Positions 40,078-57,545 of a DNA stretch of 64,000 nucleotides are shown here, piece after piece. The position numbers and the translations under genes are program-made. The stretch is from Methanovulcanius yangii (GTDB lineage: Archaea; Halobacteriota; Methanomicrobia; Methanomicrobiales; Methanomicrobiaceae). How positions within the stretch are numbered: the first letter of the stretch is position 1; each line of letters begins with the position of its first letter. The notes beneath the pieces were generated by a model. That model saw only the letters and a program-made list of their open reading frames with translations, made no database searches and had not been told where the DNA came from. The stretch covers positions 496,001 through 560,000 of the forward strand of contig NZ_LTBL01000001.1 in assembly GCF_018687785.1 (NCBI RefSeq), in the 5' to 3' direction.

Positions 40078-43000
40078 TTATCCGGTGTCCTCGTCACCGG
40101 GCAGTTCTTCTCCATCTTCATCCTGTGATCCCTGTTCTCCCTGTGTTGGCACCCCCTCCGGTGCCAACTGTTCCTGTTTCCCGTTCACACCGGCTCCCGC
40201 GTCCACGGTGGCGGCCACATCGCCCTCTGCTCCGTCAGTTCCGACGGGCATAATCATCCTCACATATGCGGTGATGTCGTCGATCTTCTTCGTGATGTGC
40301 TCCTGTGCGGTCGGGTCTATGATCCAGTCGTCACCCGCCTTGCCGTCAATCGTTCCGTCCGCCTTCTCCCGGACATTGTTGTTGAGGGCCTGGACGAATC
40401 CGTTCCACCCCTTTTCCGCGATCATCTCATCGAGCGCCTCGAACATATTGTGGAGTGCATTTTTCCGCTGGTCGGCATTTCCTTTGAATGCGCCATCGGG
40501 AAGCCCCATGATATAGTCGCTAAGATCCATCATGGCCTCGGCGACCGTGGAGACGGTCAGCTGGACCGTCGTGATGCCCGTTCCGCCGTCATCATCGGTG
40601 ACCGTTAGCTCGACGGTGTACACCCCGGGTGCAGGGTAGACATACGTAACGTTGCGGGTGAAAGCATCAATCGTCCCGTTTCCGTTGAGGTCCCAGGCAT
40701 ACGTCCAGCTGTCACATCCTGGATCAGTGACGATGGCGTTCCCGGTGGTCTGCAACAGCGGGAGGATGAACTGGCGGTTTGGCTGATAGAGGCCGATACC
40801 GGCCGTCGGCGGCACATTGACGACCTGAACGGAGGCGGATGCGGTACTGGTGAGGCCTTTTGTATCAACGACCTGGACGGATACTGTGCCGGTGTAGTCG
40901 TCGCACCAGAGATACGAAAACGTGGGATCTGCCGACCACGCCGTATCCCATGCGCCGTCGCCGTTCAGGTCCCAGCGATAGGAGAGCACGTCACCGTCGG
41001 GGTCCGACGAACCGGAGGCATCCAGCATGACCGGCGTCCCTTCGTTCGCCCCGTAGGGGCCGCCTGCGTCCGCCACCGGTGGCGCACCGGTGTCACCGAG
41101 GGGATCGGTTCCCGCCGCAACCTCATCACCGTCGCTCACCCCGTCCCCGTCGGTGTCGGCATTGCGGGGATTCGTCCCGTACCGGGCCTCGTCGAAATTG
41201 ATGAGGCCGTCCCCGTCGTTGTCACCCGCTGCGTCCGCGGTGTAGCCCGGATGCAGCCCGTAGGTATCCTCGTAGTCGTCCGCCATCCCGTCGCAGTCGG
41301 AGTCCGAGAGGACAGTGAAGGCCGCCTCACGAATTGCAGTAAATCCTTCCGTATCGGAGACTTCCAGCCGCACGATGTGTACCCCCGGTGCGAGGGGTGT
41401 GACGTCCGTCCGGGTGCCGGTGCCCGCCGGGAGGCCGTCAACATACCAGGCAGATGTCAGGCTGTCCCCGTCGGGGTCGTAGGCATATCCCCTGAGCATG
41501 ACCCTGCTGCATTCGAGAACGGTTCTGCCGTCATGGGGCTCCACGATGATGGCAATCGGGGGTTTGTTCGCGATGCTGAACCCGACGGCGTTTCCGTCCT
41601 CTGCAGCATTCAGCCCGTCGGATGCGACGATACGGACGACTCCCTTCCCTTTCGTCGCAGGCGCGGTGGCGAGGTCCCATGCGAACTCCGTACCCCCGAC
41701 ACGGGTGGCAACGACCCGCCATGTGTCCCCCCCATCGGGCGAGTAATGGATGGTGTGGGTGAGGGCATCACCATCGGGATCGGAGGACGTCCATCGGATC
41801 ATCGCCACGTCCGTTCCGCCGAAAGTGTCTCCCGCGGACGGTGCGGTGAGCGTGACGGTCGGTGGTCCCGCGGAGCGGACGAATCGTTCAAGCACCGTCT
41901 CAAAATACCTGACCTCCACCCAGCCGGTATCGGCCGGGAACGGGGCGACGACCTGCACCGGAATCAGAGCGGACGTGTAGTTAGGGTACCCTTCGACCAT
42001 TGAAAGTCCATCATCGACAGGAAACGGAGACCTTTGGAGAATGTCCGTGCCGTTCCCGAATACCAGGCTGTAGGGGCTTGCGGCGTCCTCTTCGGTGAGC
42101 GGTACCCCGGTCATCAGGTCGGTGTGGAAGTCGTGGTCGTTCGTTACGCTATTGATGAGGCCGGTGAGGACGAACCGCTCGCCATCCGTCCGGGTGACCG
42201 CCGTCTTCACGGCAGAGGATGACGATATCCTGAGGGTATCGAAGAGGTCCTGGTAATCGGGCTGATAGTGCACCACTCGGTCCGGGGGGGCATCGAGCCC
42301 CATCACGGCGTAGACATCGCCAGGGGCAACACTCTCGGTATCAATATAGACGGCCCATGCCCCCTCCTTGGTATCCATGTCGTCGGCATCGGGATCGGCA
42401 CGTTTACACGTGCCGGCGGTAGAGGTATAGAGTTCGGACAGGCCGCCGATATTATGGCCGAATTCATGGGGGAGGGCGGATGCGTTTCTCATCTTGATCC
42501 AGGAATAGAGCCCGCCATCGCCGTTTCCACATTTTCCCTGACCCGGACCGATGTCGCCGAACCTCGAATCATGTGCCACGAGTTCGTCCGGGAACCAGAA
42601 GGTGGCGAGGGGGAATTTCGATCCACAGTTCCCGTCCTTACAGAATGCAGCCCTCGCATCCGCGACCGGTCCCCAGAGGATGGACTGCTGATGATTCCAG
42701 AGAAGGCGGATATCGGCCTGCGTTTCGTCCGATTCGTCGTTGCAGTAATCCCCGTCGGCATCGATGAAGAACCGGAAGGTCTCACCCTGGTCGTAGAGGT
42801 TCAGGTCCGTCGTCCAGGCATCTGTCTGGTCGTCATAGAACTCGGCAATATAATGGGAGAGATCAGCCGTATCGATTGTTCCGTCATGGTCGCTGTCGAG
42901 AGGGATGGCAAACTTTGCATTCTTCCATTTCGGGTGTGCTCCGGCGCGGTATATCCCAAGGGCGGTGTCGAAGGCGTAGGTGAAGGTCGCACCGCTCTGG

Positions 43001-44697
43001 ACCGCGCCACCGATCTGGTGGTCATCCGGGTTGCCGCAGGCATCGATGCTTGCATTGGTCACGGCAGCGGCATCGGCGCGGGTGAGTATGCCGCTCGCAT
43101 CATGATCGATGAAGGTCCATTCAAACCCGGTTCCTCCGCAGTAATCCGGCGTGCTGTTGACCGTATCCATCGTTCCGTCGCACAGGGAAAACGGATTCAC
43201 TTCATAAAAATAGAATCCGCCGCTTCCCGAGTCCTGTATTGGATAGGTCCGTGTCAGGGCATAGATCTGGCGAAGGGTGTACTCGGTGTGGTTGGTGCCC
43301 ATGAAACGGGGGGAATACAAACCGGCCTCCACCGGGAGGACGATCGCTTCGATGTCCCTCGTCTCTTCGAAGGTATAGTAGTCCTCTCCGTTGCACGTTG
43401 CGGTGAGGGGACTTCCTATCGGGGTCATTCCTGCGTATGGCTGGAAGGTAAACTTATAGTCCCCCGCCGGATGGAGCATCTCACCGGGCACCCAGAAGTG
43501 AATCGATGCCATATCCGTCGGGGATCCGAATCCGCTGACGAACGGCGAGTACACCCATCCATTCAGCGTCCCCACCGTTATGTCGGAACCGGTGATCCCC
43601 TTTCGTGAGACATTCATCTCCACCCATGATACATAGGTATTGTACCCCGCCTTTGTTTTCACATCCAGATCGATTCTGATAATCGCGGATTTCCCGGCAA
43701 CAAGGGGGGTGTCGATATCACAGGAGGTGTCCTGCATCACGCCGCGCTGGGTGAGATGAAATGCATCGAGCGTTGCCGAATCAGGGGTGCCCAGATCGAG
43801 ATAGATCTGGTCGTCTGCAGAATAGCCATAGAGATTCTCTGCAACGGCGGTTATCGTATTTCCCCCCTCCTCCAGCGTAACTTTCCCGGTAAACTCGAAC
43901 CAGAAGGGGTAGAGATTATCAGAAAAGGAGCTGTTCAGGTAGGCCTGTGCCGGTTCGCCATCGATCTGTACGGATTTGAATATTCCACTTGTGCCGACGA
44001 TGCCCTGAATCGTCTGGCTCTGTTCATTCACGGTAATTCTTTCTCCGGAAGAAGCCGGGGACCGTATCCATATGCTGATCCCGGCCGGTTCGGAGCAGAC
44101 GGATCCGGGTCCGGTCGCGTAGTTAAACGCCAGATCATCGATCGCCTCGGGACAGAGGGAACTGCCGTAATCGATGACCAGCATTGAGAATCCGTCATTA
44201 TCATCGATTTCAAGGGGGGTATCGAAACCCGGGGTGACGAGAACTTCCGTTTCATTTCTCAGTATTCCGGAGCAGGAATAGGCCGAGACTTTCGCATTGA
44301 TGGGGCCGGGGCATGCCCCGCCGCTGCCGCCCGTATCCGGAACCGTTCCCAGCCACATCCCGACGCCGGAAACGGGCTTGTCGAACCAGATCACAAGCGA
44401 GGCATTTTCACTGCTGGAGAGTTCCCAATCAGAATATCCGTTGACGAGGACACTCGTGGGGCTCTTTGCCGTTCCATGCTGTACGATCCGCGGAGCGGCA
44501 CGATAGGTGCCGCCACCTGCCGAATCGCTCATGAAATGGATGTGGTCGGAAGCATACTGTTCAGCGATATATGTGTCAACGGGGAACTCCTCGAAGGTGA
44601 GGAAGGCGTCGGCCGATACATCAGCGGCGGATGCTCCCGTCATGCACAGTCCGATACAGGCGATACAGATTATCCAGAGGTAAGGAATAGCGTTCAT
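40078..44697 (-). CDS. Giant secreted protein with metallopeptidase-like and PKD domains
   Basis: The 1539-residue protein begins with a signal peptide (about 1-25). An N-terminal beta-sandwich follows (30-195, DUF-like), then Ig-like regions (200-450). A large middle part (450-830) contains HEFGH at 744-748 with GGLSE after it and VMG near 798-800, resembling a metzincin zinc site and Met-turn. The usual third ligand position is Ser754, with Glu755 next to it. Then come fibronectin/Ig-like segments (945-1130), Ca2+-binding Asp repeats (1131-1200), two PKD domains (about 1206-1294 and 1297-1383), a helical module (1386-1480) and an acidic tail without an anchor. It is likely surface or extracellular and may degrade or bind polymers. 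Confidence 0.85.
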   Translation of the reverse strand: MNAIPYLWIICIACIGLCMTGASAADVSADAFLTFEEFPVDTYIAEQYASDHIHFMSDSAGGGTYRAAPRIVQHGTAKSPTSVLVNGYSDWELSSSENASLVIWFDKPVSGVGMWLGTVPDTGGSGGACPGPINAKVSAYSCSGILRNETEVLVTPGFDTPLEIDDNDGFSMLVIDYGSSLCPEAIDDLAFNYATGPGSVCSEPAGISIWIRSPASSGERITVNEQSQTIQGIVGTSGIFKSVQIDGEPAQAYLNSSFSDNLYPFWFEFTGKVTLEEGGNTITAVAENLYGYSADDQIYLDLGTPDSATLDAFHLTQRGVMQDTSCDIDTPLVAGKSAIIRIDLDVKTKAGYNTYVSWVEMNVSRKGITGSDITVGTLNGWVYSPFVSGFGSPTDMASIHFWVPGEMLHPAGDYKFTFQPYAGMTPIGSPLTATCNGEDYYTFEETRDIEAIVLPVEAGLYSPRFMGTNHTEYTLRQIYALTRTYPIQDSGSGGFYFYEVNPFSLCDGTMDTVNSTPDYCGGTGFEWTFIDHDASGILTRADAAAVTNASIDACGNPDDHQIGGAVQSGATFTYAFDTALGIYRAGAHPKWKNAKFAIPLDSDHDGTIDTADLSHYIAEFYDDQTDAWTTDLNLYDQGETFRFFIDADGDYCNDESDETQADIRLLWNHQQSILWGPVADARAAFCKDGNCGSKFPLATFWFPDELVAHDSRFGDIGPGQGKCGNGDGGLYSWIKMRNASALPHEFGHNIGGLSELYTSTAGTCKRADPDADDMDTKEGAWAVYIDTESVAPGDVYAVMGLDAPPDRVVHYQPDYQDLFDTLRISSSSAVKTAVTRTDGERFVLTGLINSVTNDHDFHTDLMTGVPLTEEDAASPYSLVFGNGTDILQRSPFPVDDGLSMVEGYPNYTSALIPVQVVAPFPADTGWVEVRYFETVLERFVRSAGPPTVTLTAPSAGDTFGGTDVAMIRWTSSDPDGDALTHTIHYSPDGGDTWRVVATRVGGTEFAWDLATAPATKGKGVVRIVASDGLNAAEDGNAVGFSIANKPPIAIIVEPHDGRTVLECSRVMLRGYAYDPDGDSLTSAWYVDGLPAGTGTRTDVTPLAPGVHIVRLEVSDTEGFTAIREAAFTVLSDSDCDGMADDYEDTYGLHPGYTADAAGDNDGDGLINFDEARYGTNPRNADTDGDGVSDGDEVAAGTDPLGDTGAPPVADAGGPYGANEGTPVMLDASGSSDPDGDVLSYRWDLNGDGAWDTAWSADPTFSYLWCDDYTGTVSVQVVDTKGLTSTASASVQVVNVPPTAGIGLYQPNRQFILPLLQTTGNAIVTDPGCDSWTYAWDLNGNGTIDAFTRNVTYVYPAPGVYTVELTVTDDDGGTGITTVQLTVSTVAEAMMDLSDYIMGLPDGAFKGNADQRKNALHNMFEALDEMIAEKGWNGFVQALNNNVREKADGTIDGKAGDDWIIDPTAQEHITKKIDDITAYVRMIMPVGTDGAEGDVAATVDAGAGVNGKQEQLAPEGVPTQGEQGSQDEDGEELPGDEDTG

Positions 44698-45133: not shown

Positions 45134-46237
45134 TCAGTTCTCAGGAGCCCTTTCCTGCCCGGACGCAGTGGGGGGTGCCGGCCCGTCCGGCTTGTCGGGG
45201 CGTTCATCGCCGAGCCATCCCCTTTTGCGTGCGGCCTTCATGATGACGAGGAACTCCGCACCACCCGCCACAAGGAGGGCGAGTACGAGCGGGCCCACGA
45301 TGAAGCCCACGAGGCCGAGGAGCCAGATGCCGCCGAAAAACCCAATCCACATGATGGCGGGATGGATTCCCGCACGTTCGCCCATGAGCCACGGCCGGAA
45401 GAAGAGATCCGGCACCGCACAGACGACGGGGTACCCGATGATCGCGATGAGAGCTGCCGCCCGGTAATCGCCGAGGGAGAGGGCATAGAACCCGAGGAAG
45501 ATCATGATCAGCGTCGGACCGATGATCGGGATCAGCTGGAAGATGGCGACCACGAGGGCCCAGAAGGCGATGTGGCCGTATCCGAGGAAATAGAAGAACG
45601 GGATGGCCAGAAGAAACGTGATGACCGCCGTTGCGATGTGGACGATATAGATGGAATAGAGGGTGTTGACCCCGATCTCCGACAGGCGCCGGATGAAACT
45701 TGAGAGCGCATCCGGAATGCCGGACAGGAGTTCACTCCAGATATAATCCCCCCGGTAGGTGAACATGAAGAGCGTCAGGAAGAGGATGATCACCTTGAAG
45801 ATCAGACCGGCAAAGGACTGAACGAATCCGAAGAAGTTCGTTTCGAAGAACTGCAGCTGCGCCTGGACGAATCCCGTGACATCGACGGACGATGAGGGCT
45901 CCTCGATGGAAAATCCGGGGAACTGTATGGACTTCACCGCATCGACGATGATAAGGATGATCTCCGAGAGATAGTCGATATTTTGGTAGATGATGTAGAT
46001 GCCGAAGCCGAGTGACGCAAAGATAAAGACACCGACGACAATCGTCGTCAGGAGGGCGGCCATGCTGTCCCCCATCGAACGGGAAAGCCATATTTTGAGC
46101 GGCATGACCACAACCGCGAGGGAGATGCCGATGATGATGACATCGAAGATGGGCAGGAAGATGACGAAGGTCGTCAGTAATATGAGGGCGATCAGGGCGA
46201 TGCTGATATGTTCCGTCTTGCTCAGTGGTGTTCCCAT
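45134..46237 (-). CDS. AI-2E family membrane protein (PF01594)
   Basis: The 367-residue protein has about eight hydrophobic segments and the family signature near the end: GYPVVCAVPDLFFRPWLMG, HPAIMWIGFFGGIWLLGLVGFIVGPL. Family members include the TqsA exporter and Na+/H+ or acid-tolerance transporters; substrate here is unknown. The charged C-terminal tail (KAARKRGWLGDERPDKPDG) is cytoplasmic. ATG 46237 is preceded by an A/T-rich region without a strong ribosome site. Confidence 0.9.
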   Translation of the reverse strand: MGTPLSKTEHISIALIALILLTTFVIFLPIFDVIIIGISLAVVVMPLKIWLSRSMGDSMAALLTTIVVGVFIFASLGFGIYIIYQNIDYLSEIILIIVDAVKSIQFPGFSIEEPSSSVDVTGFVQAQLQFFETNFFGFVQSFAGLIFKVIILFLTLFMFTYRGDYIWSELLSGIPDALSSFIRRLSEIGVNTLYSIYIVHIATAVITFLLAIPFFYFLGYGHIAFWALVVAIFQLIPIIGPTLIMIFLGFYALSLGDYRAAALIAIIGYPVVCAVPDLFFRPWLMGERAGIHPAIMWIGFFGGIWLLGLVGFIVGPLVLALLVAGGAEFLVIMKAARKRGWLGDERPDKPDGPAPPTASGQERAPEN

Positions 46238-46520: not shown

Positions 46521-47006
46521 ATGCTGGGTGAACTGGTCAACATATTCATCGCGGCAGTACTGTGCTGGCTTCTCTTTATCGTGGTCGATGTGACGTTCAG
46601 GCTTCCCGAAAAAGGAGGAGTGAGTGGTGCTGATGCGATCGCCTCCTCTGTCGAGAGAGCGGGGGGTGACCTCAACGGCGGTTCTATGATGGGCAATATT
46701 GTATGTTCGCCCGATGCATCCGCCGGGACACTTCTGGCAGCCTGCGGCGTCTATGTCGCAGGTATCGGCGGAGGCCTTACCGCTGCCGTCCTTGTTTTTA
46801 TCGGAAACCGCATCTGCCATGACCCCGGGTATGCCGGGACGACAGGTGCGGTCCTTGCGACATTTATGGTCTATGGACTGGGCATGGCAGGAATTGCTGC
46901 GGCGGAGTGCATCGCAGGAATGGTTATTGCAATACTAACGATACAGGGGATATCCCACCTGCATGCCAGCAGACTTCTCGGCAGGTTCTGGGGGTGGCGA
47001 TCATAA
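46521..47006 (+). CDS. ehaB: Energy-converting hydrogenase A, EhaB-like membrane subunit
   Basis: The 161-residue protein has about four hydrophobic segments and a conserved-looking hydrophilic loop (GGSMMGNIVCSPDASAGTLLAACGVYVAG). It matches the size and place of EhaB, the first large membrane subunit of the Eha complex. GGAGA lies 6 bases before ATG 46521. It is the first gene of a coupled run of about 18 genes; no EhaA-like gene precedes it. The name follows order and size rather than a diagnostic motif. Confidence 0.7.
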   Translation: MLGELVNIFIAAVLCWLLFIVVDVTFRLPEKGGVSGADAIASSVERAGGDLNGGSMMGNIVCSPDASAGTLLAACGVYVAGIGGGLTAAVLVFIGNRICHDPGYAGTTGAVLATFMVYGLGMAGIAAAECIAGMVIAILTIQGISHLHASRLLGRFWGWRS

Positions 47007-47245
47007 TCCCCGTTCTGGTATGTGCCGTCATCGGATTGTTTGCCGCCGTCAGGATGGTTGTTGAACAGGAGACGCCCCGCAAACTGCTCTACCTGAATGT
47101 GCTTAATTTTGCGATCGCCGGTTCAGTCGTCCTTCTGGTGCCGGATATCATGGGGCTCTTTGCGGCTGCGGCATATTTTGTCGGTTCGACGCTGGAATCA
47201 AATGCCATTGCAAGCACGCTGGCAGGAGGAGTGAAACGAGCATGA
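46994..47245 (+). CDS. ehaC: Eha subunit EhaC-like (DUF2109)
   Basis: Starting at GTG 46994, which overlaps the ehaB end by 13 bases, the frame gives 83 residues with three hydrophobic helices (VAIIIPVLVCAVIGLFAAV; VLNFAIAGSVVLLVPDIMGLF). The size and position fit EhaC, a small membrane subunit. A start further upstream would lie inside ehaB in another frame. Confidence 0.72.
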   Translation: MAIIIPVLVCAVIGLFAAVRMVVEQETPRKLLYLNVLNFAIAGSVVLLVPDIMGLFAAAAYFVGSTLESNAIASTLAGGVKRA

Positions 47246-47472
47246 TGGACTACCTCATCATAATCTTCGCCATGATCGCCCTCATTGGAGCGGTTTCGAC
47301 GTACCTGCGAAAGAGCCCGTTCGATAAACTGATCGGGATTGCGGTCATGACCGGTGGGATCATTCCGTTTGTCGTCATTAAGGGATATCTGGATGTGGCG
47401 ATTGTCATCGCCCTCGTCGTCCCGGTCACGACGATCTTTCTCCTCCAGGCAACAGGGAGTGATGCGACATGA
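47242..47472 (+). CDS. ehaD: Eha subunit EhaD-like (DUF2108)
   Basis: The 76-residue protein consists of three hydrophobic helices with the inner YLRKSPFDKLIGIAVMTGGI segment. It overlaps ehaC by 4 bases and ehaE by 4. Eha and Mrp-type complexes share MrpC/G-like small subunits of this kind that help form the ion channel. Confidence 0.78.
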   Translation: MMDYLIIIFAMIALIGAVSTYLRKSPFDKLIGIAVMTGGIIPFVVIKGYLDVAIVIALVVPVTTIFLLQATGSDAT

Positions 47473-47705
47473 CCCCTGAATTTATTCTGGGACTTCTCCT
47501 GCTGGTTATCGGTATCGGTGCATCGGTGTTCCCACGGACGCGGAATTATCTCGACCGGCTCATCAATGTGGAAGTTGCGGCGACCGGCCTGATGCTGGTC
47601 CTTCTCTCCTTCGATGAGACGATAGCACTTCTCACCTTCGTTGCGGTAACCACGCTTGCCACCGCAGTGCTGGTGCGGGTGATTGAACGGAGGTGTGGCA
47701 TATGA
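47469..47705 (+). CDS. ehaE: Eha subunit EhaE-like (DUF2107)
   Basis: This 78-residue protein has two or three membrane helices (LGLLLLVIGIGASVFP; AATGLMLVLLSFDETIALLTFVAV). It overlaps both neighbours as ATGA. The order C-D-E-F with these sizes is the eha order of Methanothermobacter. Confidence 0.78.
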   Translation: MTPEFILGLLLLVIGIGASVFPRTRNYLDRLINVEVAATGLMLVLLSFDETIALLTFVAVTTLATAVLVRVIERRCGI

Positions 47706-48157
47706 TCGGCCGTCTTTCACGGTATCTCGCAAATATCGACAACCTGACGACGGTGTATGCCGTCGTGGTTGTCGCGGTCGCCGTGTTCGGCATCCTTCTC
47801 CTCATTGTCTCGCCGGTTGACTATCATGACGACCAGCTCTATCCGAAATCCATCGACACGGGCTCGTCGCTCAATCCATACGACCGGGGCGGCGATCCAT
47901 TCAACCGGACAGCCGTCGTGGCGCAGTATCCGGAAAATTCACCCTATCTCGGATATGTCACGGCGTACCTGACACCACTTTCGGCGTTCTTCGCTGCAAG
48001 CAACATGTACCTCGGGACGACGATCGTCTCGCACCCCGGCGGCATCATCGATGAGATTCTCTACAATACGCGTGGGCTCGATACGATAGCAGAGACCAGC
48101 ATTCTCTTCGTTGCCTTTGCCATCGCATCGTTCCTGTTCAGGAGGGAAGAGGAATGA
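47702..48157 (+). CDS. ehaF: Eha subunit EhaF-like (DUF2106)
   Basis: The 151-residue protein has an N-terminal helix (about 20-40) and a long hydrophilic loop rich in Asp, Tyr and Pro (VDYHDDQLYPKSIDTGSSLNP). A C-terminal helix ends in FLFRREEE. The extracellular or cytosolic loop is unusual for a small ion-channel subunit and is a mark of EhaF. The start ATG 47702 overlaps the ehaE stop. Confidence 0.78.
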   Translation: MIGRLSRYLANIDNLTTVYAVVVVAVAVFGILLLIVSPVDYHDDQLYPKSIDTGSSLNPYDRGGDPFNRTAVVAQYPENSPYLGYVTAYLTPLSAFFAASNMYLGTTIVSHPGGIIDEILYNTRGLDTIAETSILFVAFAIASFLFRREEE

Positions 48158-48753
48158 TCAGCTGGTATGTCATCGGCCTGATCGTAATCTTTGCCGGGGT
48201 TGCGCTCACCTTCAGCGCATTCCTGAAGGAACGGGATGATGTCCATAAACTGATCCTCGCCGATTTGGCGGAGATCTCCGGTCTTGCGATCATTGCCCTT
48301 ACGGCAACCGATCTGGCCGAGGCGCTCATCATCCCCGGTCTCGTCGTCGGGATATCCGAACTTCTGGCGGTATCCGAGATCTACCTGACGCGGGAAAAGT
48401 TGTTCGAGCAGCCAAAAAAGCGTTTCAGGATCGAAGTGATGGACAGTGCCCCTGCCCTTCTGGGGGCGATCCTCGTCATATTCGGTATTGTTCTCTCCGG
48501 GTTTACCGGCGGTGCCGTGGCGGCGACAGGAGTGATCTTCTACTTCCTCTGCAAGGGGCAGCAGGAGCGGTTTGCGCTCATCGAGACCGTATCCGGGTAT
48601 GCATGGGCGCTCTGGATTGTGGCCTTCTTCACCTTCATGCTGGCTCCGTCCTACTGGTTCTTCGGGGTCATGCTGGCAGGGTCTGCGATTCTTGCAAAGG
48701 TCGTAGCGAAGATGTCCCTGATAGGGGCGATGCGGGGTGAGAGCAATGCCTGA
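48154..48753 (+). CDS. ehaG: Eha subunit EhaG-like (DUF2105)
   Basis: The 199-residue protein has six or so hydrophobic segments. It resembles the MrpB/C-type part of energy-converting hydrogenases (LIIPGLVVGISELLAVSEIYL). It overlaps ehaF by 4 bases and ehaH by 8. The size fits EhaG. Confidence 0.78.
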   Translation: MISWYVIGLIVIFAGVALTFSAFLKERDDVHKLILADLAEISGLAIIALTATDLAEALIIPGLVVGISELLAVSEIYLTREKLFEQPKKRFRIEVMDSAPALLGAILVIFGIVLSGFTGGAVAATGVIFYFLCKGQQERFALIETVSGYAWALWIVAFFTFMLAPSYWFFGVMLAGSAILAKVVAKMSLIGAMRGESNA

Positions 48754-49414
48754 CCTGGCTTCGGCACGCATCGCGGGTGAGCCGTTCTTTACGCTTCCTT
48801 TCGGGGATATCGTCAATTACTTCACTCCCTATACGGCGGTTCTCTTTGGTTTCGCCCTCCTTTTCACGGCAATATGCATATTCAGCAGGCCGGAGCGGCA
48901 GCTCGATGTGGTCTTTGGGACGGATGCCTACTACGCCAAGGGGGTGACGGGAAAAGAGCTCCGGTTCCGACGGTTCATGGCAATCGCCTGCGGGTGTGCG
49001 ACGATGGGGGCCATGCTGAGCGGGGATGTGTTCAACTTCACGCTCTTCGTCAGTATGGTGGGAATCTGCATCATCGGCATCGTGGCGGCGGTGAAGAGCC
49101 GGCACGTCCTCGATGCGGCATACAATTACGGGATCATATCGATCATTGCCACCGTCCCGCTCTTCGGTGGCGCCGCAATCACGCTTGCCACGACAGGAAC
49201 CCTCTCCATATGGGCCCTCTCCGGGATGCAGGCGGGTATGCCCCTCATCGCAAAGATACTGATTCTCCTCGGTGTGATGGGCGAGGGTATTGCGCCGTTT
49301 TACGCGGCAAAGGCGGAGCTGTTCAGGGCGCCCGGCGCCCCGTACGTGATCATGATCCATGTGAGTTCCCTCCTGATGTTCCTCAGGGTGGTCGAAATAC
49401 TGCTGACGGTGTGA
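48746..49414 (+). CDS. ehaH: Eha subunit EhaH-like, short NuoL/MrpD-type subunit
   Basis: The 222-residue protein has about six membrane segments and the antiporter-like pattern MLSGDVFNFTLFVSMVGI followed by LDAAYNYGIISIIATVPLFGG and LGVMGEGIAPFYAAKAELF. This is a shortened version of the NuoL/M/N fold, as in EhaH. The Glu and Lys residues in the helices are candidates for ion translocation. ATG 48746 is preferred over the in-frame GTG 48737. Confidence 0.8.
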   Translation: MPDLASARIAGEPFFTLPFGDIVNYFTPYTAVLFGFALLFTAICIFSRPERQLDVVFGTDAYYAKGVTGKELRFRRFMAIACGCATMGAMLSGDVFNFTLFVSMVGICIIGIVAAVKSRHVLDAAYNYGIISIIATVPLFGGAAITLATTGTLSIWALSGMQAGMPLIAKILILLGVMGEGIAPFYAAKAELFRAPGAPYVIMIHVSSLLMFLRVVEILLTV

Positions 49415-49623
49415 TGAAAATGGAAAAGTGGAAAGTACAGACAATGACGATTGCGGCTTTCATCGTGGCTATCGGTGCGTGGGCTGCCGGTCTTGTGGGA
49501 ATAATCAGTCAGGGAATTGAAGCGGCCCTGCTGGTTGTTTCATTTCCGGTTCTCTGTGTCGGCATGATGCTCTGGTGGACGCTGGGGAAGGGAGAGGACG
49601 ATCTTCCGTTCATGGGGTACTGA
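49414..49623 (+). CDS. ehaI: Eha small membrane subunit EhaI-like
   Basis: ATG 49414 overlaps the ehaH stop (TGATG). The 69-residue product has two hydrophobic helices (MTIAAFIVAIGAWAAGLVGII; LLVVSFPVLCVGMMLWWTL) and a short acidic end GKGEDDLPFMGY. Its place between EhaH and the NuoH-like subunit fits EhaI. Confidence 0.68.
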   Translation: MKMEKWKVQTMTIAAFIVAIGAWAAGLVGIISQGIEAALLVVSFPVLCVGMMLWWTLGKGEDDLPFMGY

Positions 49624-49624
49624 T

Positions 49625-50467
49625 ATGCTGGTAGAACTCGTAATTGCCGTGATTCTGGGACTGCTCTTTCTGGGTATCCACCGGAAGGTCATCGCACGGG
49701 TGCAGGGACGGCCGGGACCTCCCGTCTGGCAGGAGATCCTCCATACCCTGAAGTTCTCCTTCAAGGAAACATGGGTCCCCAAGACCGCAAGCAGACTCCT
49801 CTATGTCGGCATCGTCATCGTCGCGATAGGCATCTGGACGGCGGCTCTGTATGTCGTGCTTGCAGGGGGGAGCATCCTCATCCTCTTTGGAATTTACATG
49901 CTGCACAAGATGGTCGAGCATGGTGTCGGCCTCTCGCCCGGTTCGCCGTATGCGAAATTCGGTGGAATTCGATCCGTCATCTCCGCATCGTCGGAGATCC
50001 CGCTCTTTGCGGTCATCGGCGGTATCTACTTCTTCACCGGTTCGCTGATGATATCGGATCTCGTCGCCTACCAGGCAATTAACGGTCCAATCCTGATTTC
50101 GATACTTCCTGCCGGTATTGCAATGTATATGGTCATTCTCTCCAAGATGCATTACGGGCCGTTCTCCATCGTCGAGAGCAAGGAGATTGTAAGCGGTTAC
50201 CAGACCGAACACTTCGGTGTCTGGCGGGCAGGTCTCCAGATAGGGGATGCAATAAAGACATTCGTGCTTCTCTATGCGTTCATTCTCATCTTCATCGGGC
50301 AGATGAATCCGGTGCTGATGCTGGTTGCCATGCTGGTGCTTCTGGTGTCCCTGTCCTTTGTCTGTGCCGTCTCTCCGATGCTCAGTCCCTATGATTCAGT
50401 GACGGTTCAGATGGTGGCGATATGTATCCTGGTGATATGGCTTGGTGTTCTGGTGGTGATCGCATGA
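49625..50467 (+). CDS. ehaJ: Eha subunit EhaJ-like (NuoH/EchB-type)
   Basis: The 280-residue membrane protein belongs to the NuoH/EchB/HycD group that links the hydrogenase arm to the membrane. IHRKVIARVQGRPGPPVWQ is the RxQxRxGP-like family motif (about residues 19-37). SSEIPLF and SILPAGIAMYMVILSKM, and the loop FSIVESKEIVSGYQTEHFGV with the conserved Glu cluster (about 178-197), follow. It ends in ATGA overlap with the next gene. Confidence 0.88.
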   Translation: MLVELVIAVILGLLFLGIHRKVIARVQGRPGPPVWQEILHTLKFSFKETWVPKTASRLLYVGIVIVAIGIWTAALYVVLAGGSILILFGIYMLHKMVEHGVGLSPGSPYAKFGGIRSVISASSEIPLFAVIGGIYFFTGSLMISDLVAYQAINGPILISILPAGIAMYMVILSKMHYGPFSIVESKEIVSGYQTEHFGVWRAGLQIGDAIKTFVLLYAFILIFIGQMNPVLMLVAMLVLLVSLSFVCAVSPMLSPYDSVTVQMVAICILVIWLGVLVVIA

Positions 50468-50712
50468 CGCTTCTTCGAAAGGCAATGACACTTGGAATTA
50501 TCGGGTATATCCTCATTGCCGCCTGGCAGGTTGCAACGAGGCCCGAGGTATTCACCGGCGCAGCACTTCTTCTGGTCGGTCTGGCAGGGCTCGCCGGGCT
50601 GGTCTGGGCAAAGAATGAACCGGTCCTGAAGAGGGTGGAGATGGTGATGCTCTGGCTCTGTATCGGACTCTTTGTGCTCTACGGAGCCCTGACTGCAGGA
50701 GGGGTCGTCTGA
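50464..50712 (+). CDS. Eha small membrane subunit (EhaK/EhaL position)
   Basis: The 82-residue protein has three hydrophobic helices and overlaps its upstream neighbour by 4 bases and the next by one base. In the Methanothermobacter eha operon the slots between EhaJ and EhaM are EhaK and EhaL. Only one gene is present here, so I do not choose between the names. Confidence 0.65.
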   Translation: MTLLRKAMTLGIIGYILIAAWQVATRPEVFTGAALLLVGLAGLAGLVWAKNEPVLKRVEMVMLWLCIGLFVLYGALTAGGVV

Positions 50713-51101
50713 TGGCGGACTACCTGTATGAACGGGATCTAAGGCAGATGAAATATATCATCGTCACGAGTCCGCTTCATGAGCCGGTTGTAACCGAAAT
50801 CGCTGCGCATTATGCACTTGGCAGGCAGATCATCCGGCGAAAGATGATCGATGAGTGTGACATGTCATTTCTGGAAAATATTCCCGCGCGGTACGAGGTA
50901 TGGAAAACAACGGACAGCATCCATGACCCGGTGGAACGGCAACTGGGAGTGCGTCTCCTCACCGTCTATATCCCCATGCTCCCTCAGGGAGAGATGAAGG
51001 CGGTGGAGGAACGTGTGCGGTCGCGCATACGGGACGGCAATCCCGAAGCCGATGTGTATGATGAGGGGATGGATGCAATCAGGGAGATGATACGAAGATG
51101 A
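50712..51101 (+). CDS. ehaM: Eha hydrophilic subunit EhaM-like (DUF1959)
   Basis: The 129-residue soluble protein is helical and charged ([20 protein letters not shown]; the ending [13 protein letters not shown]). Its size and place just before the [NiFe] small subunit fit EhaM, a DUF1959 protein of unknown role. It overlaps both neighbours. Confidence 0.75.
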
Positions 51102-51553
51102 GCAGATTACAGGACCTCAAAAATACGGTGCGGTCGAGGTCGATTCATGTCTGTTATGTCAATGTCGGGTCCTGCAACGGATGCGACATTGAGATTCTTG
51201 CATGTCTGGCCCCGCGGTATGATATTGAACAATACGGCATCTATGTCCATAATAACCCGCGAGAGGCGGATGTTCTCCTGATCACCGGGGCTTTTTCCCC
51301 GCAGTGGGAGGATAAACTCATGGATCTATGGGAGAAGATTCCCGAGCCAAAGGTGGCCATCGCCATCGGAAACTGCCCGATTTCAGGGTGTGTGTTCAAC
51401 CGCGAAGGCAGTTATGTGGACCCGCCGGTGCGAAAGCACATCCCGATAGCAGCCGAAGTGCCGGGATGCCCCCCCCGGCCCACGGAAATTCTGCAGGCGG
51501 TTCTCTCGCTGGCACCGGTGGTATTCAAGGATTACGAGGGTGATGGAAAATGA
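51098..51553 (+). CDS. ehaN: [NiFe] hydrogenase small subunit EhaN
   Basis: The 151-residue protein carries the proximal [4Fe-4S] cluster of a group 4 hydrogenase. Ligands are visible as GSCNGCDIE (Cys at about 24 and 27), NCPISGC (near 88-94) and the later VPGCPPRP (near 121). It lacks the twin-arginine signal of uptake hydrogenases and is related to NuoB/EchC. It overlaps its neighbours as ATGA. Confidence 0.93.
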
Positions 51554-52635
51554 AGCGAACGGTTGATGTCTCTCTTCCCATCGGTCCTGTCCATCCGGTG
51601 TTCAAGGAGCCCTGTCGGATCAAATGTGAAACGCGGGGAGAATATGTGTTGAATGCCGAGGTGGAGCTTGGATACGTGAAGAAAGGGATCGAGCGTATCA
51701 TGCGGGGGCGGCCATGGCAGGAGGTCATGTTCCTCGCCGAGCGGGTCTGTGGCATCTGCTCGGTCATCCATAATATGGTTTTTATCGAAGGGGTGGAGCT
51801 GATCTCGGATATCCCCCTGCCGGACCGGGCGGCCTATCTCCGGGTCATATCCAATGAACTGGACCGCATCCAGAGTCATCTTCTGGCAAACTACTCGTAC
51901 TGCTATACGATCGAGCATGAAACACTCGCGATGTATCTGCTCAACCTGCGGGAGACGGCGATGGATGCGATTGAGCGACTCACCGGTGCCCGCGTTACGT
52001 GTTCGTACATCATTCCCGGCGGTGTCAGGTTTGACATCTCGGAAGAGGATGCCCGGTGGTTACGGGAGACGCTGGATACGATTGACAGCGAACTTGCCCG
52101 TTTTGTCTCCATGTTCAGGAATGGTTCCCTGATTGCTCTCAGGAGCAAAGAGATAGGAATTTTCACCCGGGAAGAGGCCATCGAGGCGCATGCGGTAGGA
52201 CCGACGGCGAGGGCGAGCGGGATAGCACACGACTATCGTCTGGAGCATCCGACCTATCGCCGGCTGGATTTCTCGCCTGTGGTGTATACCGAGGGAGACA
52301 ACTACGCCCGGATCATGGTCAGGTTCGATGAAGTCTTCCAGAGCACCGCCCTCATTCGTGAATGCCTCAATCGCCTCGAGCCCGGAGATATCCGCGGCGG
52401 TGGAGCGGTCATCGCCGGAACGTCGCGGTGGGCCGGGGAGGCACCCCGCGGGGAGCTTACCTACCAGATCACGACCGACGAATTCGGCAGGGTGACCGAC
52501 ATCGGCATACGGACGCCGTCGATTATGAACATAGAAGCATGTGCCCATTATATGCTCAAAGGAGTGCTTTCTGCTGCTGATATTACTGCGACCTATATCA
52601 GCTCGGACCCATGTATCGCATGCAATGAGAGGTAA
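51550..52635 (+). CDS. ehaO: [NiFe] hydrogenase large subunit EhaO
   Basis: The 361-residue protein holds the Ni-Fe active site. The L1-type ligands [11 protein letters not shown] (about residues 63-73) and the C-terminal DPCIACNER are present. The protein ends four residues after the last Cys pair begins (CNER), so no cleavable extension is visible, as expected for many group 4 enzymes. It is related to NuoD/EchE. Together with EhaN, EhaJ and EhaH it should couple H2 oxidation to ferredoxin reduction, driven by ion flux. Confidence 0.93.
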
Positions 52636-52637
52636 CC

Positions 52638-53261
52638 ATGAGTTCATCCGTCATCTGGTATCTGAAGGAATTCGCCCGGGGAGAATGGCTGAGGAAATTC
52701 TTCTTCGTGAAGACTGCCCCACTTGAGACTCCCCCGCATTTCAGGGGATTTCCGCAGACCACCGAAAACCTCTGCACCCACTGCCTTGCCTGCCGCATGA
52801 TCTGTCCCGCCCCGGGGGCGATCGATGTTCTCCGGGAAGGAGAGGTATGGATGCCCCATATCCATCTTGGTCACTGCATCCGGTGCGGTCTCTGTGTGGA
52901 GGCATGTCCTGAAAATGTGCTCACCTCCGGAAGAATCCTTGATGTCCAGAAAAGGGATCAGACCATGTATGCATCGACCTTCCATGTCATCATAGATCCT
53001 GCTCTGTGCAAACGGTGCGGAAACTGCTCTGTTGCCTGCCCCGTCAACAAGGAGATCGACCCCTACCTCGCCGGAACCGGCACCGCTTCCAGCGAAGAGG
53101 TGATCATGCGCATTATCCGTGGTGAGATGAGAGTCATTCATCCGGAGAAATGTACCGGGTGCAAGACGTGTGAAGAGACCTGTCCCAATCATGCCATCCG
53201 TGTGGCGCGGGTTGTCCGGGGGATTCATGGTGACAAGGGTGTCCTGGAGGAGAGCTCATGA
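52638..53261 (+). CDS. Polyferredoxin with four [4Fe-4S] clusters
   Basis: The 207-residue protein contains four CxxCxxCxxxCP motifs: CTHCLACRMICP, CIRCGLCVEACP, CKRCGNCSVACP and CTGCKTCEETCP. The first two are about 25-30 residues apart, and the others further. This resembles the EhaP/EhaQ ferredoxins or FwdF/G-type electron carriers. Set directly between ehaO and fwdD, it is the obvious conduit for electrons between hydrogenase and formylmethanofuran dehydrogenase (inference from position). The next gene starts 4 bases before its stop. Confidence 0.92.
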   Translation: MSSSVIWYLKEFARGEWLRKFFFVKTAPLETPPHFRGFPQTTENLCTHCLACRMICPAPGAIDVLREGEVWMPHIHLGHCIRCGLCVEACPENVLTSGRILDVQKRDQTMYASTFHVIIDPALCKRCGNCSVACPVNKEIDPYLAGTGTASSEEVIMRIIRGEMRVIHPEKCTGCKTCEETCPNHAIRVARVVRGIHGDKGVLEESS

Positions 53262-53650
53262 AGTTCATCATGAATACGGGACGCACCATCCGTCAGGGCA
53301 AGCACATCGAAAGCAAACTTGGAAGCGCCTACAGCGACGAGACGGGAACCTGTTTCATGCACCCGATGGACATGCTGGCTCTTGGTGTCGAGGAGAATGA
53401 AAACGTGAAGGCATCAACGGGTGTAGGTGAGGTGGTGCTGACAGTAAAAACGGATGAAGGGCTGCCCGAAGGAATGATATTCATCCCGTATGGCCGCCAC
53501 TGCAATGCCATTCTCCCGTCGACGACGCACAGTACGGGAATGCCTGACTACAAGCACTCAGATATTGAGGTCATCGCCACCGATGAGAAACGGAAGAGTG
53601 CCGCTGAGCTGATGCGGGATATGGGGGGGATCTCCTATGAAAACCATTGA
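53258..53650 (+). CDS. fwdD: Formylmethanofuran dehydrogenase subunit D
   Basis: The 130-residue protein corresponds to the molybdopterin-dinucleotide-binding C-terminal domain of oxidoreductases, which is a separate subunit in Fwd/Fmd. GLPEGMIFIPYGRHCNAILP and TGMPDYKH are the typical contacts. It overlaps fwdB by 14 bases and the polyferredoxin gene by 4. Confidence 0.92.
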   Translation: MKFIMNTGRTIRQGKHIESKLGSAYSDETGTCFMHPMDMLALGVEENENVKASTGVGEVVLTVKTDEGLPEGMIFIPYGRHCNAILPSTTHSTGMPDYKHSDIEVIATDEKRKSAAELMRDMGGISYENH

Positions 53651-54929
53651 GGATATGGTCTGTCCGTTCTGTGGTTGTCTCTGTGATGATGTGACCCTGA
53701 CGGTTGAAAATGACATGATCATTGCCGCCGACAACTGCTGCACCGTCGGAAATGCAAAATTCATGGGGAAAAACCGCCTGAAGTCCCCCATCATCAGGAA
53801 GAACGGTGCATGGGAGGAGACCGGGTATGAGGAGGCCGTTCAGTACGCGGTCGACACGCTCCTTGATGCTGATCGTCCTCTGATGTTCGGCTGGTCCGGG
53901 ACTCACGGAGAGGCGCAGTGTATCGGCGTTCACATGAACGAGCTCATCGGCGGAGTCATCGACAGCACCACCTCCGTCTGTCACGGACCATCCATCCTTG
54001 CGATTCAGGAGGTAGGGCATCCGGGCTGCACCCTCGGACAGGTGAAGAACCGCGCCGACCTGATCATCTACTGGGGGTGCAATCCGGTGGAAGGGCATCC
54101 GCGTCATATGAGCCGGTACACGGTGTATGCGGACGGGTATTTCCTCGACAACTCCTTCAGGGATCGCAAGGTAATCGTCGTCGATGTCCGTGAAACGGAG
54201 ACGGCAAAAATTGCGGACGAATTCGTGCGCATCAAACCCGGCGGCGATTATGCCGTCATCTCGGCACTCCGTGCCATCGTCCGTGGAAAAGGGGACATCA
54301 TCCCCGAGTCGGTTGCAGGCGTGAGCAGGGAACAGCTTTTCAAAGTGGCGGAGCTCTGCAAGACCTGCAAGTTCGGGGCGCTCTTCTTCGGCCTTGGTCT
54401 TACCATGGTGAAGGGCAAATACAAGAACGTCCGCAATGCCATCGAACTTGTCGATGAACTGAACCGCCATACGAAGTTTACCCTCACCCCCATGCGTGGC
54501 CACTGGAATGTGTACGGGTCGAATGAAGTCTTTACGTGGATGACGGGATATCCGTATGCAGTGGATTTCTGCCGGGGAGTGGCGTTCTACAATCCCGGAG
54601 AGACCTCTGCCATCGATATCCTTGCGCGAAAGGAGTGCGATGCGTGCCTCGTGGTGGCAAGCGATCCGGGGGCGCATTTCCCCCGGGCCTGTGTCGAACA
54701 TATGAAGGACATACCGACGATCGTCATCGATCCCTTCCAGACGCTCACGACGACGGTGGCAACCCTCCAGATTCCGGTAGCGGTCACCGGCATCGATGCG
54801 GAGGGGACGGCATACCGTATGGACGGTATTCCCCTGAAAGTGAAAAAAGCGCTGGATTTGGGGTATCCGAGTGACGAGGAGATCCTGTCGAGAATTTATG
54901 GGAAGATGATGGAGGTGAAGAGTCGATGA
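53637..54929 (+). CDS. fwdB: Formylmethanofuran dehydrogenase subunit B
   Basis: Subunit B is the catalytic subunit that reduces CO2 to formate with a tungsten or molybdenum bis-pyranopterin cofactor and one [4Fe-4S] cluster. The 430-residue protein has the cluster ligands CPFCGCLCDD and Cys34 or Cys35 (NCC). Cys115 (TTSVCHGPS) is the metal ligand; it is encoded by a normal Cys codon, not UGA. Later blocks MRGHWNVYG and ASDPGAHFPR support the family. W versus Mo use cannot be decided from sequence. Confidence 0.95.
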   Translation: MKTIEDMVCPFCGCLCDDVTLTVENDMIIAADNCCTVGNAKFMGKNRLKSPIIRKNGAWEETGYEEAVQYAVDTLLDADRPLMFGWSGTHGEAQCIGVHMNELIGGVIDSTTSVCHGPSILAIQEVGHPGCTLGQVKNRADLIIYWGCNPVEGHPRHMSRYTVYADGYFLDNSFRDRKVIVVDVRETETAKIADEFVRIKPGGDYAVISALRAIVRGKGDIIPESVAGVSREQLFKVAELCKTCKFGALFFGLGLTMVKGKYKNVRNAIELVDELNRHTKFTLTPMRGHWNVYGSNEVFTWMTGYPYAVDFCRGVAFYNPGETSAIDILARKECDACLVVASDPGAHFPRACVEHMKDIPTIVIDPFQTLTTTVATLQIPVAVTGIDAEGTAYRMDGIPLKVKKALDLGYPSDEEILSRIYGKMMEVKSR

Positions 54930-56626
54930 GCGAACTTCTCATTAAAAACGGGTACGTGATCGACCCGCTGGGCGGCATTTCCGGCGAGATTATGGATATC
55001 GCCGTACGGGACGGGAAGATCGTTGAATCGGTCGGAAGTTCGGCCGATGTCATCGACGCCCATGGCATGCTCACTCTTCCCGGAGGTATCGATTCCCACA
55101 CCCATATCTGCGGGACCAAGGTGAACTTCGGCCGGTACATGAGTCCCGAGGACATGCGGGCTGGCAGGACGACCCGGAAGGGTGATATGCATGCCACCTC
55201 GGGATTTTCCGTCCCGACGACCTACGGGAACAGTTACCGGTATGCCCGGATGGGGTATACGACCCTCCTCGAGGGGGCGATGGCACCCATGGAGGCCCGC
55301 CACACCCACGAGGAATTCCAGTATACACCGCTGCAGGACTGTATGGCAAATACCCTTTTTGACGGCAACTGGCAGGCGCTGGAGGCCATCGGAAACAAGG
55401 ATATCAAGCGTCTGGCTGGAATTATCGCATGGTATCTGACCGCTTCGAAGGGATTTGCCGTCAAACTCACCAATCCCGGCGGAACCGAGTCATGGGGATT
55501 CGGGCGCGATGTCTCATGTATTCACAAGCGCATTGAGCACTTCAATGTCTCGCCGCGTGAGATCATCACCTCGATGATTGAAGCGAACGAGATGCTGGGT
55601 CTTCCCCATTCCGTCCACCTTCACTGCAACAATCTCGGCAAACCGGGGAACTACCTCTGTACCCTTGACACCTACAACTCGATACCGGACCTGAACGACA
55701 AGAGGCAGTCGCTCTATTCAACGCATGTGCAGTTCCATTCCTACGGGGGGACGTCATGGCACGACTTCTGCTCGAAGGCGGAGGATATCGCCCGCTCGGT
55801 GAACAACAAGCCGCATATCGTCATCGATACCGGTCAGGTGATGTTCGGGAAGACCACGACGATGACTGCCGACGGCCCGATGGAGTTCAACCTCTACCGG
55901 TTGTATCATAATAAATGGAGCAACCATGATGTCGAGCTCGAGACAGGTTCCGGGGTCATACCTGTTCTCTACAGCAGAAAAAATCTGGTCAATTCAATCA
56001 TGTGGGCCATTGGTCTTGAACTGGGCCTGCTTGTTGAGAGCCCGTGGCAGTGTATCCTTGCAACCGACAATCCGAACGGTGCGCCCTTTGTCCGGTACCC
56101 CGAGGTGATGGCGCTTCTGATGAGCAAAAAATACCGGGATGCTGAGTTTGCAACGGTTGATCCGGGGACGGAATCACGCGTGTCACTTCCTGCTCTCGAC
56201 AGGGAATTTGACTGGGAGGAGATCGTCATTGCAACACGGTCTGCACAGGCCCGGGCGCTCGGTCTCGTGGATCATGGAAAAGGGCATCTTGCGGAGGGAG
56301 CGGATGCCGATATTGCGATCTATCCGATCGATGTTGCGTCGACGGACCCCGCGCAGGACTATGAATCTGTCATCAATGGCTTTTCAATGACCGATTATAC
56401 CATCAAGATGGGTCATGTGGTGGCACGCAAGGGCACCTGTACCATCGATTACTCGAATCGTACCTTCTGGGTCCGCCCACGGGTTCCTGAGAATTATGAT
56501 ATGGGCCGCGACCCCGAATTCATCGACAGTTTCAACAAGTACTATTCCATGAGGATGGCGAATTATCCGGTACAGGATGAGTATACGAAACGCAATGTCT
56601 GTATCGAGACGGAGGTGTCGCTATGA
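54926..56626 (+). CDS. fwdA: Formylmethanofuran dehydrogenase subunit A
   Basis: Subunit A is a binuclear zinc amidohydrolase that condenses formate with methanofuran; formate reaches it through an internal channel. The 566-residue protein has the metal motif IDSHTHICGTK (about residues 52-62) and the Lys/His-rich core typical of the family. GMGGTSWHDF-like YGGTSWHDFCSKAED, HIVIDTGQVMFG and ATDNPNGAPFVRYP follow. Both ends overlap neighbours as ATGA. Confidence 0.96.
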   Translation: MSELLIKNGYVIDPLGGISGEIMDIAVRDGKIVESVGSSADVIDAHGMLTLPGGIDSHTHICGTKVNFGRYMSPEDMRAGRTTRKGDMHATSGFSVPTTYGNSYRYARMGYTTLLEGAMAPMEARHTHEEFQYTPLQDCMANTLFDGNWQALEAIGNKDIKRLAGIIAWYLTASKGFAVKLTNPGGTESWGFGRDVSCIHKRIEHFNVSPREIITSMIEANEMLGLPHSVHLHCNNLGKPGNYLCTLDTYNSIPDLNDKRQSLYSTHVQFHSYGGTSWHDFCSKAEDIARSVNNKPHIVIDTGQVMFGKTTTMTADGPMEFNLYRLYHNKWSNHDVELETGSGVIPVLYSRKNLVNSIMWAIGLELGLLVESPWQCILATDNPNGAPFVRYPEVMALLMSKKYRDAEFATVDPGTESRVSLPALDREFDWEEIVIATRSAQARALGLVDHGKGHLAEGADADIAIYPIDVASTDPAQDYESVINGFSMTDYTIKMGHVVARKGTCTIDYSNRTFWVRPRVPENYDMGRDPEFIDSFNKYYSMRMANYPVQDEYTKRNVCIETEVSL

Positions 56627-57393
56627 GAGTCATCATGGAAGTCAGGGAACGGCATCGGCCGAACCTTCCCATCGAGGCGGAATGTATCGTCCCGAAGAAC
56701 TTTGTGGGGCCGGAGCGGACGTTTTACGTCTGGAAGGGAAACAAAAAGCTCGAACTGCGGGATGTCTTCCGTATCCGTCGTGACGGTCACGCCAATTCGG
56801 TCGATAAGGTGGAGATTATCATCCGTGGCGACAGCTCCCATATCAAACGCATCGGGGAGTACATGGATGGAGGGAAGATCACCATCGAGGGCGATATCGG
56901 GATGCACTGTGGCAATTTCATGAGTGACGGTGTCATTGAGATCAGGGGCAATGCCGACTCATGGTTGGGCCGGGAGATGAACGGCGGAACGATCATCTGC
57001 CATGGAAATGCCGGTGATTATGCCGGGTCCGGGTATCGCGGTGAAAAGCACGGGATGAAAGGGGGTACCATCGAGATCATGGGGGATGCCGGTGATTTTG
57101 CCGGAGAAACCCTTGCCGGCGGGGAGATCATCATCCATGGTGATGCCGGGGATATGCCCGGTGTCGACATGAAAGACGGCACCCTCGTCATCAAAGGCGA
57201 CTGTTCCCGGCCCTGCGGGAATATGACCGGAGGCACCTGTACGGTACTGGGGACCGTTCATGATATGCTCCCGACCTTCAGGAATGAAGGGACACAACAG
57301 CGGGGCGATCAGGTCCTGACCAGATTCACGGGTGACCATATCTCCCGGGGACTGGGAACACTTTATATAAACAAATTCAAATATATTGATTGA
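56623..57393 (+). CDS. fwdC: Formylmethanofuran dehydrogenase subunit C
   Basis: The 256-residue protein forms a right-handed beta-helix like the C-terminal domain of glutamate synthase. It contains many G-x-x-G-x-x-x repeats (GDIGMHCGNFMSDG, GNADSWLGREMNGG, GDAGDFAGETLAGG, GDAGDMPGVDMKDG). It is structural in the Fwd complex. The stop TGA overlaps the ATG of a 50-codon zinc-ribbon gene. Subunits E, F and G are not in the window. Confidence 0.95.
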   Translation: MRVIMEVRERHRPNLPIEAECIVPKNFVGPERTFYVWKGNKKLELRDVFRIRRDGHANSVDKVEIIIRGDSSHIKRIGEYMDGGKITIEGDIGMHCGNFMSDGVIEIRGNADSWLGREMNGGTIICHGNAGDYAGSGYRGEKHGMKGGTIEIMGDAGDFAGETLAGGEIIIHGDAGDMPGVDMKDGTLVIKGDCSRPCGNMTGGTCTVLGTVHDMLPTFRNEGTQQRGDQVLTRFTGDHISRGLGTLYINKFKYID

Positions 57394-57545
57394 TGCTCAG
57401 GCACACCTGTGGATATGAGGCTGATGTTCACTGCCGGAAATGCGGACGTGAACTGATCTATCATGAAAAAAACGGACTGTACTGTCCATATTGCGGAAGA
57501 AAGGTCACCATGATCTGCCCGGGGTGCGGCAAGCCCTGGTTATAG
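57393..57545 (+). CDS. 50-residue zinc-ribbon protein at the end of the Eha-Fwd operon
   Basis: ATG 57393 overlaps the fwdC stop (TGATG), and the frame runs to TAG at 57543-57545. The product has Cys at 6, 14, 17, 32, 35, 43 and 46, arranged as single C, CRKC, CPYC and CPGC, which suits two zinc ribbons or knuckles. The Cys spacing, the good coupling to fwdC and the sequence GLYCPYCGRKVTMICPGCGKP all argue for a real gene. It overlaps the convergent DUF1922 gene by 6 bases. Function unknown; Fwd assembly or expression control are guesses. Confidence 0.72.
   Translation: MLRHTCGYEADVHCRKCGRELIYHEKNGLYCPYCGRKVTMICPGCGKPWL

Follow-up and report, generated by a model that had tools for sequence, protein, structure and literature searches.

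An association between the membrane-bound hydrogenase Eha and formylmethanofuran dehydrogenase (Fwd, or Fmd) has been described before. Anderson et al. 2009 (PMC2686161) described an eha-fmd gene neighbourhood without EhaA and EhaM in three Methanomicrobiales and proposed that Eha powers the first reduction of CO2 by way of reduced ferredoxin. Gilmore et al. 2017 (PMC5563889) reported two Fwd sets for Methanocorpusculum parvum, the first associated with Eha and the second with Hdr, both having a ferredoxin gene of their own; they suggested that the Eha-linked set refills intermediates. Here we analyzed a 64,000-nucleotide stretch of the Methanovulcanius yangii genome (contig NZ_LTBL01000001.1, positions 496,001 to 560,000; the window), in which a forward-strand run of genes at 46521-57545 carries both enzymes and, exactly between them, a gene (52638..53261) whose product looks like a chimera of a hydrogenase iron-sulfur subunit and FwdG. 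We consider it probable that these genes form an eha-fwd operon and that the chimeric subunit joins the two enzymes, such that electrons would pass from Eha to Fwd without a free ferredoxin.

Because the arrangement and the basic coupling idea were published in 2009 and 2017, neither is new. The run matches the eha-fmd neighbourhood of Anderson et al. in gene order and in lacking EhaA and EhaM; the excerpted text of that paper does not present the junction protein as a fusion of EchF with FwdG, and we found no earlier report of it as a chimera in the open-licence literature, although a description elsewhere is possible. The two-Fwd model for M. parvum assumes separate ferredoxins, whereas in the window FwdG is part of the "ferredoxin" that goes with the Eha set. 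In class I Eha systems (Methanothermobacter), the membrane hydrogenase genes are likewise followed by polyferredoxin genes, but EhaP and EhaQ are 6- and 10-cluster polyferredoxins, set apart from the window protein by their description, and the fwd genes lie elsewhere. In the Hdr-Fmd megacomplex (e.g., 7bkb), the Fwd core is fed directly via FwdG and FwdF, and the host has an hdr-fwd operon of that type; in the window the predicted input is instead a membrane [NiFe] hydrogenase, and the operon is without FwdF. Ethane-oxidising archaea have replaced FwdF with FwdI, an F420-reductase subunit, and kept FwdG (8rja, PMC11493965). That enzyme has the solved FwdB closest to the one in the window and is a precedent for the exchange of Fwd modules, its own module being an F420 reductase where that of the window is a hydrogenase.

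The run comprises 19 genes, namely, 13 eha genes (ehaB, C, D, E, F, G, H, I, J, K, L, N, and O), the junction gene encoding a Fer4 protein, fwdD, fwdB, fwdA, fwdC, and a zinc-ribbon open reading frame (ORF). At all 18 junctions, neighbouring genes overlap or are separated by no more than 2 nt; the gap between ehaO and the Fer4 gene is 2 nt, and the Fer4 gene overlaps fwdD in the form ATGA. The original prediction, made from the sequence of the window, had described about 18 touching genes from ehaB to the zinc ribbon, and its layout, coordinates, and gene names agree with ours; the count is 19. It had also placed a four-cluster polyferredoxin between the hydrogenase and Fwd. The product, of 207 amino acids, does have 16 cysteines in four motifs at that position, but it resembles a chimera more than a plain polyferredoxin, and no dedicated family for it was named by NCBIfam among the matches shown.

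The C-terminal half of the junction protein looks like FwdG over the whole length of the latter. In phmmer searches against Protein Data Bank (PDB) chains, residues 118-190 aligned to all of FwdG (9sfi_U, 6.9e-15, through 73 ungapped residues that include IMR...G; 5t5i_G, 4.3e-13). A structure model of the protein made by AlphaFold from 43 sequences (predicted local distance difference test score [pLDDT] of 84, predicted template modeling score of 0.64; a single-sequence model was unusable, with a pLDDT of 34) gave FwdG (5t5i_G) as the top VIA-align fold match of residues 114-192, with a Z score of 12.7 and a root mean square deviation of 1.9 Å over 79 of 80 residues, and Foldseek agreed. Bacterial-type ferredoxin domains are all similar, and for that reason the work on ethane oxidisers refrained from using FwdG in BLAST searches (PMC11493965); this half might therefore be a generic two-cluster extension that lengthens the Eha chain of an EchF-like subunit, its likeness to FwdG reflecting shared ancestry. 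We regard that explanation as very improbable, since FwdG stands clear of the other domains by each measure. In a PDB search with a C-half profile, the top single domains were those of FwdG (9sfi_U at 74 bits, and 5t5i_G), against 34 bits for the best FwdF domain; the next-best fold row had a Z score of 9.8; and within the whole host genome the best paralogue was the FwdG of the hdr-fwd operon (43 bits), ahead of FwdF domains (30 bits). From sequence and predicted fold, then, residues 114-192 appear to be a FwdG, which is predicted to act as an electron donor that binds FwdB.

The N-terminal half looks by sequence like a hydrogenase iron-sulfur subunit of the EchF/HycF/NuoI type. Residues ~25-110 matched HycF, MbhN-type, and NuoI subunits in phmmer searches against PDB chains, and the best full-domain PDB matches to a profile of this half were 6u8y_N (NuoI-type) and HycF (7z0s_F), multi-cluster polyferredoxins scoring high only through summed weak domains. 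Its best paralogue in the host loci examined was EchF of the ech operon, at 33 bits (the next scored 22). For model residues 31-108, the VIA-align structure rows were ferredoxin domains of HdrA, and because they listed no NuoI-type fold match, the N-half assignment draws on sequence and gene position.

We then examined how far the junction is conserved, a survey that had been proposed along with the original prediction. Among 84,980 genomes, the best 80 named relatives of the locus all belong to Methanomicrobiales or unplaced Euryarchaeota; ehaO lies directly before the fusion gene in every locus whose contig reaches that far, and fwdD follows it in 74, the other six having no fwd gene after it (e.g., Methanomicrobium mobile, L091). 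Since such a list is biased toward close relatives, 150 genomes of the order were also compared. Of these, 122 encode an Eha-type EhaO, and in 121 the fusion adjoins ehaO, with a median of 8 nt between the matches; in the remaining genome (G105) the fusion is next to ehaO but frameshifted. The fusion was absent from the listed genomes without an Eha-type EhaO, including those with only Ech-type large subunits. The link to fwdB, which lies within 3 kb downstream of ehaO in 83 of the 122 genomes, is looser than the link to ehaO. A chance adjacency or an annotation artefact can be set aside with near certainty, because the gene order recurs in most sequenced relatives and is identical in dozens of named genomes; order and conservation are established, and the domain make-up is supported by sequence and, for the C half, by predicted fold.

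Genomes without eha-fwd linkage occur mainly in part of the host's family and in one genus of another family, and they indicate to which enzyme the fusion belongs. In G007, G001, and G025, a fwdDBAC set of the window type is convergent to the hdr-fwd operon, hundreds of kilobases from eha, and the ehaO-fusion pair is intact, with the zinc ribbon nearby; G043 resembles these genomes, with only fwdD and fwdB seen there. In another family (L137, L138, L140), fwdA and fwdC come after the fusion, and fwdD and fwdB are elsewhere. Because the fusion stays with ehaO where fwd has moved away, it belongs to Eha. All eight cysteines of the C half are kept in 126 of 127 fusion copies, among them all 22 copies without an adjacent fwdB (some of which share a genome). 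If the protein had a physical role in trans, its FwdG half would be expected to persist without a neighbouring fwdB; co-regulation by itself would give no such expectation. The original prediction had spoken of a physical or regulatory unit; these observations support a physical one more strongly than gene order could by itself, and a purely regulatory one fits them less well. As separate observations, the Eha-type fwd block and the hdr-fwd operon are arranged either convergently or in tandem in L134, L136, L144, and L146, which have no eha-fwd linkage, and an orphan second fusion copy without an adjoining hydrogenase lies near moeA-like genes in genome G148 (L167:9645-10286).

Outside the order, a clear Eha was found among the sampled genomes of the phylum in G274, G172, and G221. 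In G274 the fusion is present, and a fwdDBAC cluster lies ~20 kb away. In G221, ehaO is followed only by a two-cluster protein of ~102 residues that matches the N half, and the fwd genes are clustered with hdr, an arrangement consistent with the unfused state.

Taken together, these results suggest a path for the electrons. Ion influx through the membrane arm of Eha would drive electrons from H2 at EhaO to EhaN and on to the clusters of the N half, which, as an EchF/NuoI-type subunit, would accept them from the hydrogenase small subunit. The C half, as FwdG, would hand them from its clusters to the iron-sulfur cluster and the tungsten or molybdenum pterin of FwdB, where CO2 would be turned into formate for use by FwdA. 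FwdF, which many but not all Fwd enzymes have, was not found within 46521-57545. Since the operon supplies its FwdDBAC core with neither FwdF nor a separate FwdG, the FwdG borne by Eha would serve as the plug of that core and the transfer would be direct. We lean toward the view that Methanomicrobiales and a relative build a membrane supercomplex around a proton- or sodium-driven [NiFe] hydrogenase to which FwdG is covalently attached; H2 oxidation, ion influx, and the reduction of CO2 to formylmethanofuran would then be united in one enzyme, with no diffusible ferredoxin. The published model differs, in that Eha would reduce a free soluble ferredoxin, or a dedicated free one, Fwd would draw on that pool (ferredoxins specific to each Fwd in Gilmore et al. 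2017; see also Anderson et al. 2009), and the operon would serve co-expression only. Eha is known as a ferredoxin-reducing hydrogenase, the genes are not side by side in many Methanomicrobiales genomes, and the excerpted text of Anderson et al. reports eha and fwd as unlinked in M. maripaludis (PMC2686161). The Fer4 protein is nevertheless unlike a free ferredoxin, combining a hydrogenase-type subunit with FwdG and lying beside ehaO even where no fwd gene is near, and for this reason we think a free-ferredoxin route unlikely here.

Several points weigh against a direct transfer through the chimera. The fusion could also present electrons to free ferredoxin. In 39 of the 122 genomes, some of them through contig ends, fwdB is not closely downstream of ehaO, so tight operon coupling is not required; and in a related methanogen, shaking down-regulated eha subunits with no differential expression of the Eha-adjacent fwd genes (PMC12008871), which argues against a strict operon view. 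By a simple pairwise score the N half prefers EchF only slightly over FwdG (96 versus 88), and the unfused state rests on one incomplete genome (G221, 63% complete). Furthermore, Cys49, the second cysteine of the first cluster, is present in the window and missing from 47 of the 127 fusion copies in the fetched loci (C in 80, A in 18, E in 16, H in 7, Q in 3, T in 2, and S in 1); it is the only freely varying ligand, the other 15 cysteines being essentially invariant, and the first cluster may therefore be unusual. Loss of the second cysteine of a cluster motif is the usual mark of convertible 3Fe/4Fe clusters, so in roughly one third of copies the first cluster may be a 3Fe-4S cluster or be ligated in another way. 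We considered whether this loss is tied to the unlinking of fwd and rejected the idea: linked Methanoregula and Methanolinea lack the cysteine too, and several unlinked genomes keep it.

The host has a second Fwd set, encoded by an operon in one direction, fwdG-fwdF-hdrC-hdrB-hdrA-fwdD-fwdB-fwdA-fwdC, at about C1:1,317,000-1,327,000 (C1:1317155-1326872; L006:7156-16873), a few kilobases from mcr genes; the one FwdF found in the host lies there. The two sets thus appear to have two dedicated inputs, bifurcating Hdr acting through FwdF/FwdG and Eha acting through the chimera, and the eha-fwd operon would provide a hydrogenase-powered entry of CO2 beside the electron-bifurcating Hdr-Fwd system. 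We also asked whether Eha substitutes for a missing Mvh. This was not supported, as the host encodes a large subunit of the MvhA/VhuA type (the VhuA model scored best, with 416 bits, below its cut-off of 800); it also has Frh, Ech, and a further Mbh-like hydrogenase. The original prediction had suggested that ferredoxin reduction is delivered directly to CO2 reduction rather than only to the refilling of intermediates; we found no support for the latter contrast, given that refilling also uses Fwd and that the genome encodes Mvh as well as an hdrABC-fwd operon that includes a fwdG and a fwdF. Because refilling itself passes through CO2 reduction by Fwd, the two roles do not differ in mechanism and a direct transfer from Eha to Fwd would fit either of them; gene content cannot tell bulk methanogenesis from refilling.

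Gene identities in the run (all on the forward strand) come from Pfam and NCBIfam searches, with ehaB, ehaI, and ehaK placed by position. The run begins with ehaB (46521..47006, ATG start; also supported by tblastn orthologues in related eha loci), followed by ehaC (46994..47245, start uncertain; PF09882 DUF2109, 5.6e-29), ehaD (47242..47472; PF09881 DUF2108), ehaE (47469..47705; PF09880 DUF2107), ehaF (47693..48157; PF09879 DUF2106, 2.3e-60), ehaG (48154..48753; PF09878 DUF2105, 4.3e-70), and ehaH (48746..49414; PF10125, 6.7e-95), whose start is ATG 48746 or GTG 48737. Then come ehaI (49414..49623), a small membrane protein gene recognized as a hydrophobic ORF without a family match; ehaJ (49625..50467; PF00146 NADHdh, 5.5e-30); ehaK (50464..50712), for another small membrane protein, placed by position only and without a family match; and an ehaL-like DUF1959 gene (50712..51101) with a PF09218 match of 8.4e-4, below the curated cut-off, and a position conserved in relatives. 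The hydrogenase small subunit is encoded by ehaN (51098..51553; PF01058 Oxidored_q6, 8.6e-28) and the [NiFe] large subunit by ehaO (51550..52635; PF00346 Complex1_49kDa, 3.2e-49; PF00374 NiFeSe_Hases, 8.1e-12). EhaO has both nickel-ligand CxxC motifs (RVCGIC and DPCIAC), and its best PDB match is Mbh alpha (6cfw_L, 2.4e-54). With both catalytic subunits and the Eha-specific membrane subunits (DUF2105-2109, PF10125, and EhaJ) all present, the hydrogenase is an Eha (group 4h). Family searches found no EhaA, EhaM, or EhaP-T in the run, which thus falls short of the full class I set EhaA-T; that set is not defining for the order, because the reduced form without EhaA and EhaM is the known Methanomicrobiales form.

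Downstream of the fusion gene lie fwdD (53258..53650; NF042908, 8.7e-31, below the curated cut-off; Molydop_binding and position), fwdB (53637..54929; TIGR03129, 602 bits; PDB 8rja_B, 1.1e-156), fwdA (54926..56626; TIGR03121, 766 bits), and fwdC (56623..57393; TIGR03122, 248 bits). The Fwd/Fmd catalytic core A, B, C, and D is thus present, with FwdA, FwdB, and FwdC above cut-off. The run ends with the double zinc-ribbon ORF (57390..57545; PF08792, 1.4e-5), whose position is conserved in relatives. In L089, L101, L133, L135, L143, and L169, this ORF is close behind the fusion gene with fwdDBAC elsewhere, and because it stays where fwdDBAC does not, it seems to go with Eha and not with Fwd. Upstream, the neighbour of the run is a divergent AI-2E transporter gene (45134-46237, reverse strand), and downstream a 382-nt gap precedes cofE at 57928. 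Terminator-like matches in a sigma-70 promoter and terminator scan were at the level of shuffled sequence, and the promoter model of that scan is inapplicable to archaea. A 1,539-amino-acid ORF with PKD domains at 40078-44697 (reverse strand) probably encodes a surface protein.

The reduction of CO2 with H2 by methanogens, at a potential that H2 alone cannot reach, poses a question central to their energy metabolism, and discussion of whether Eha serves the main pathway or only refills it goes back to 2009 or earlier. An Eha that carries its own FwdG would open this question to a direct test on one 23-kDa protein. We favour, with some reserve, the view that the supercomplex adds to Hdr and F420 a third input that feeds electrons directly into Fwd. 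An Eha with its own FwdG would also mark Fwd as a core that takes exchangeable electron plugs: FwdF/FwdG for Hdr, FwdI for F420, and the chimera for a hydrogenase.

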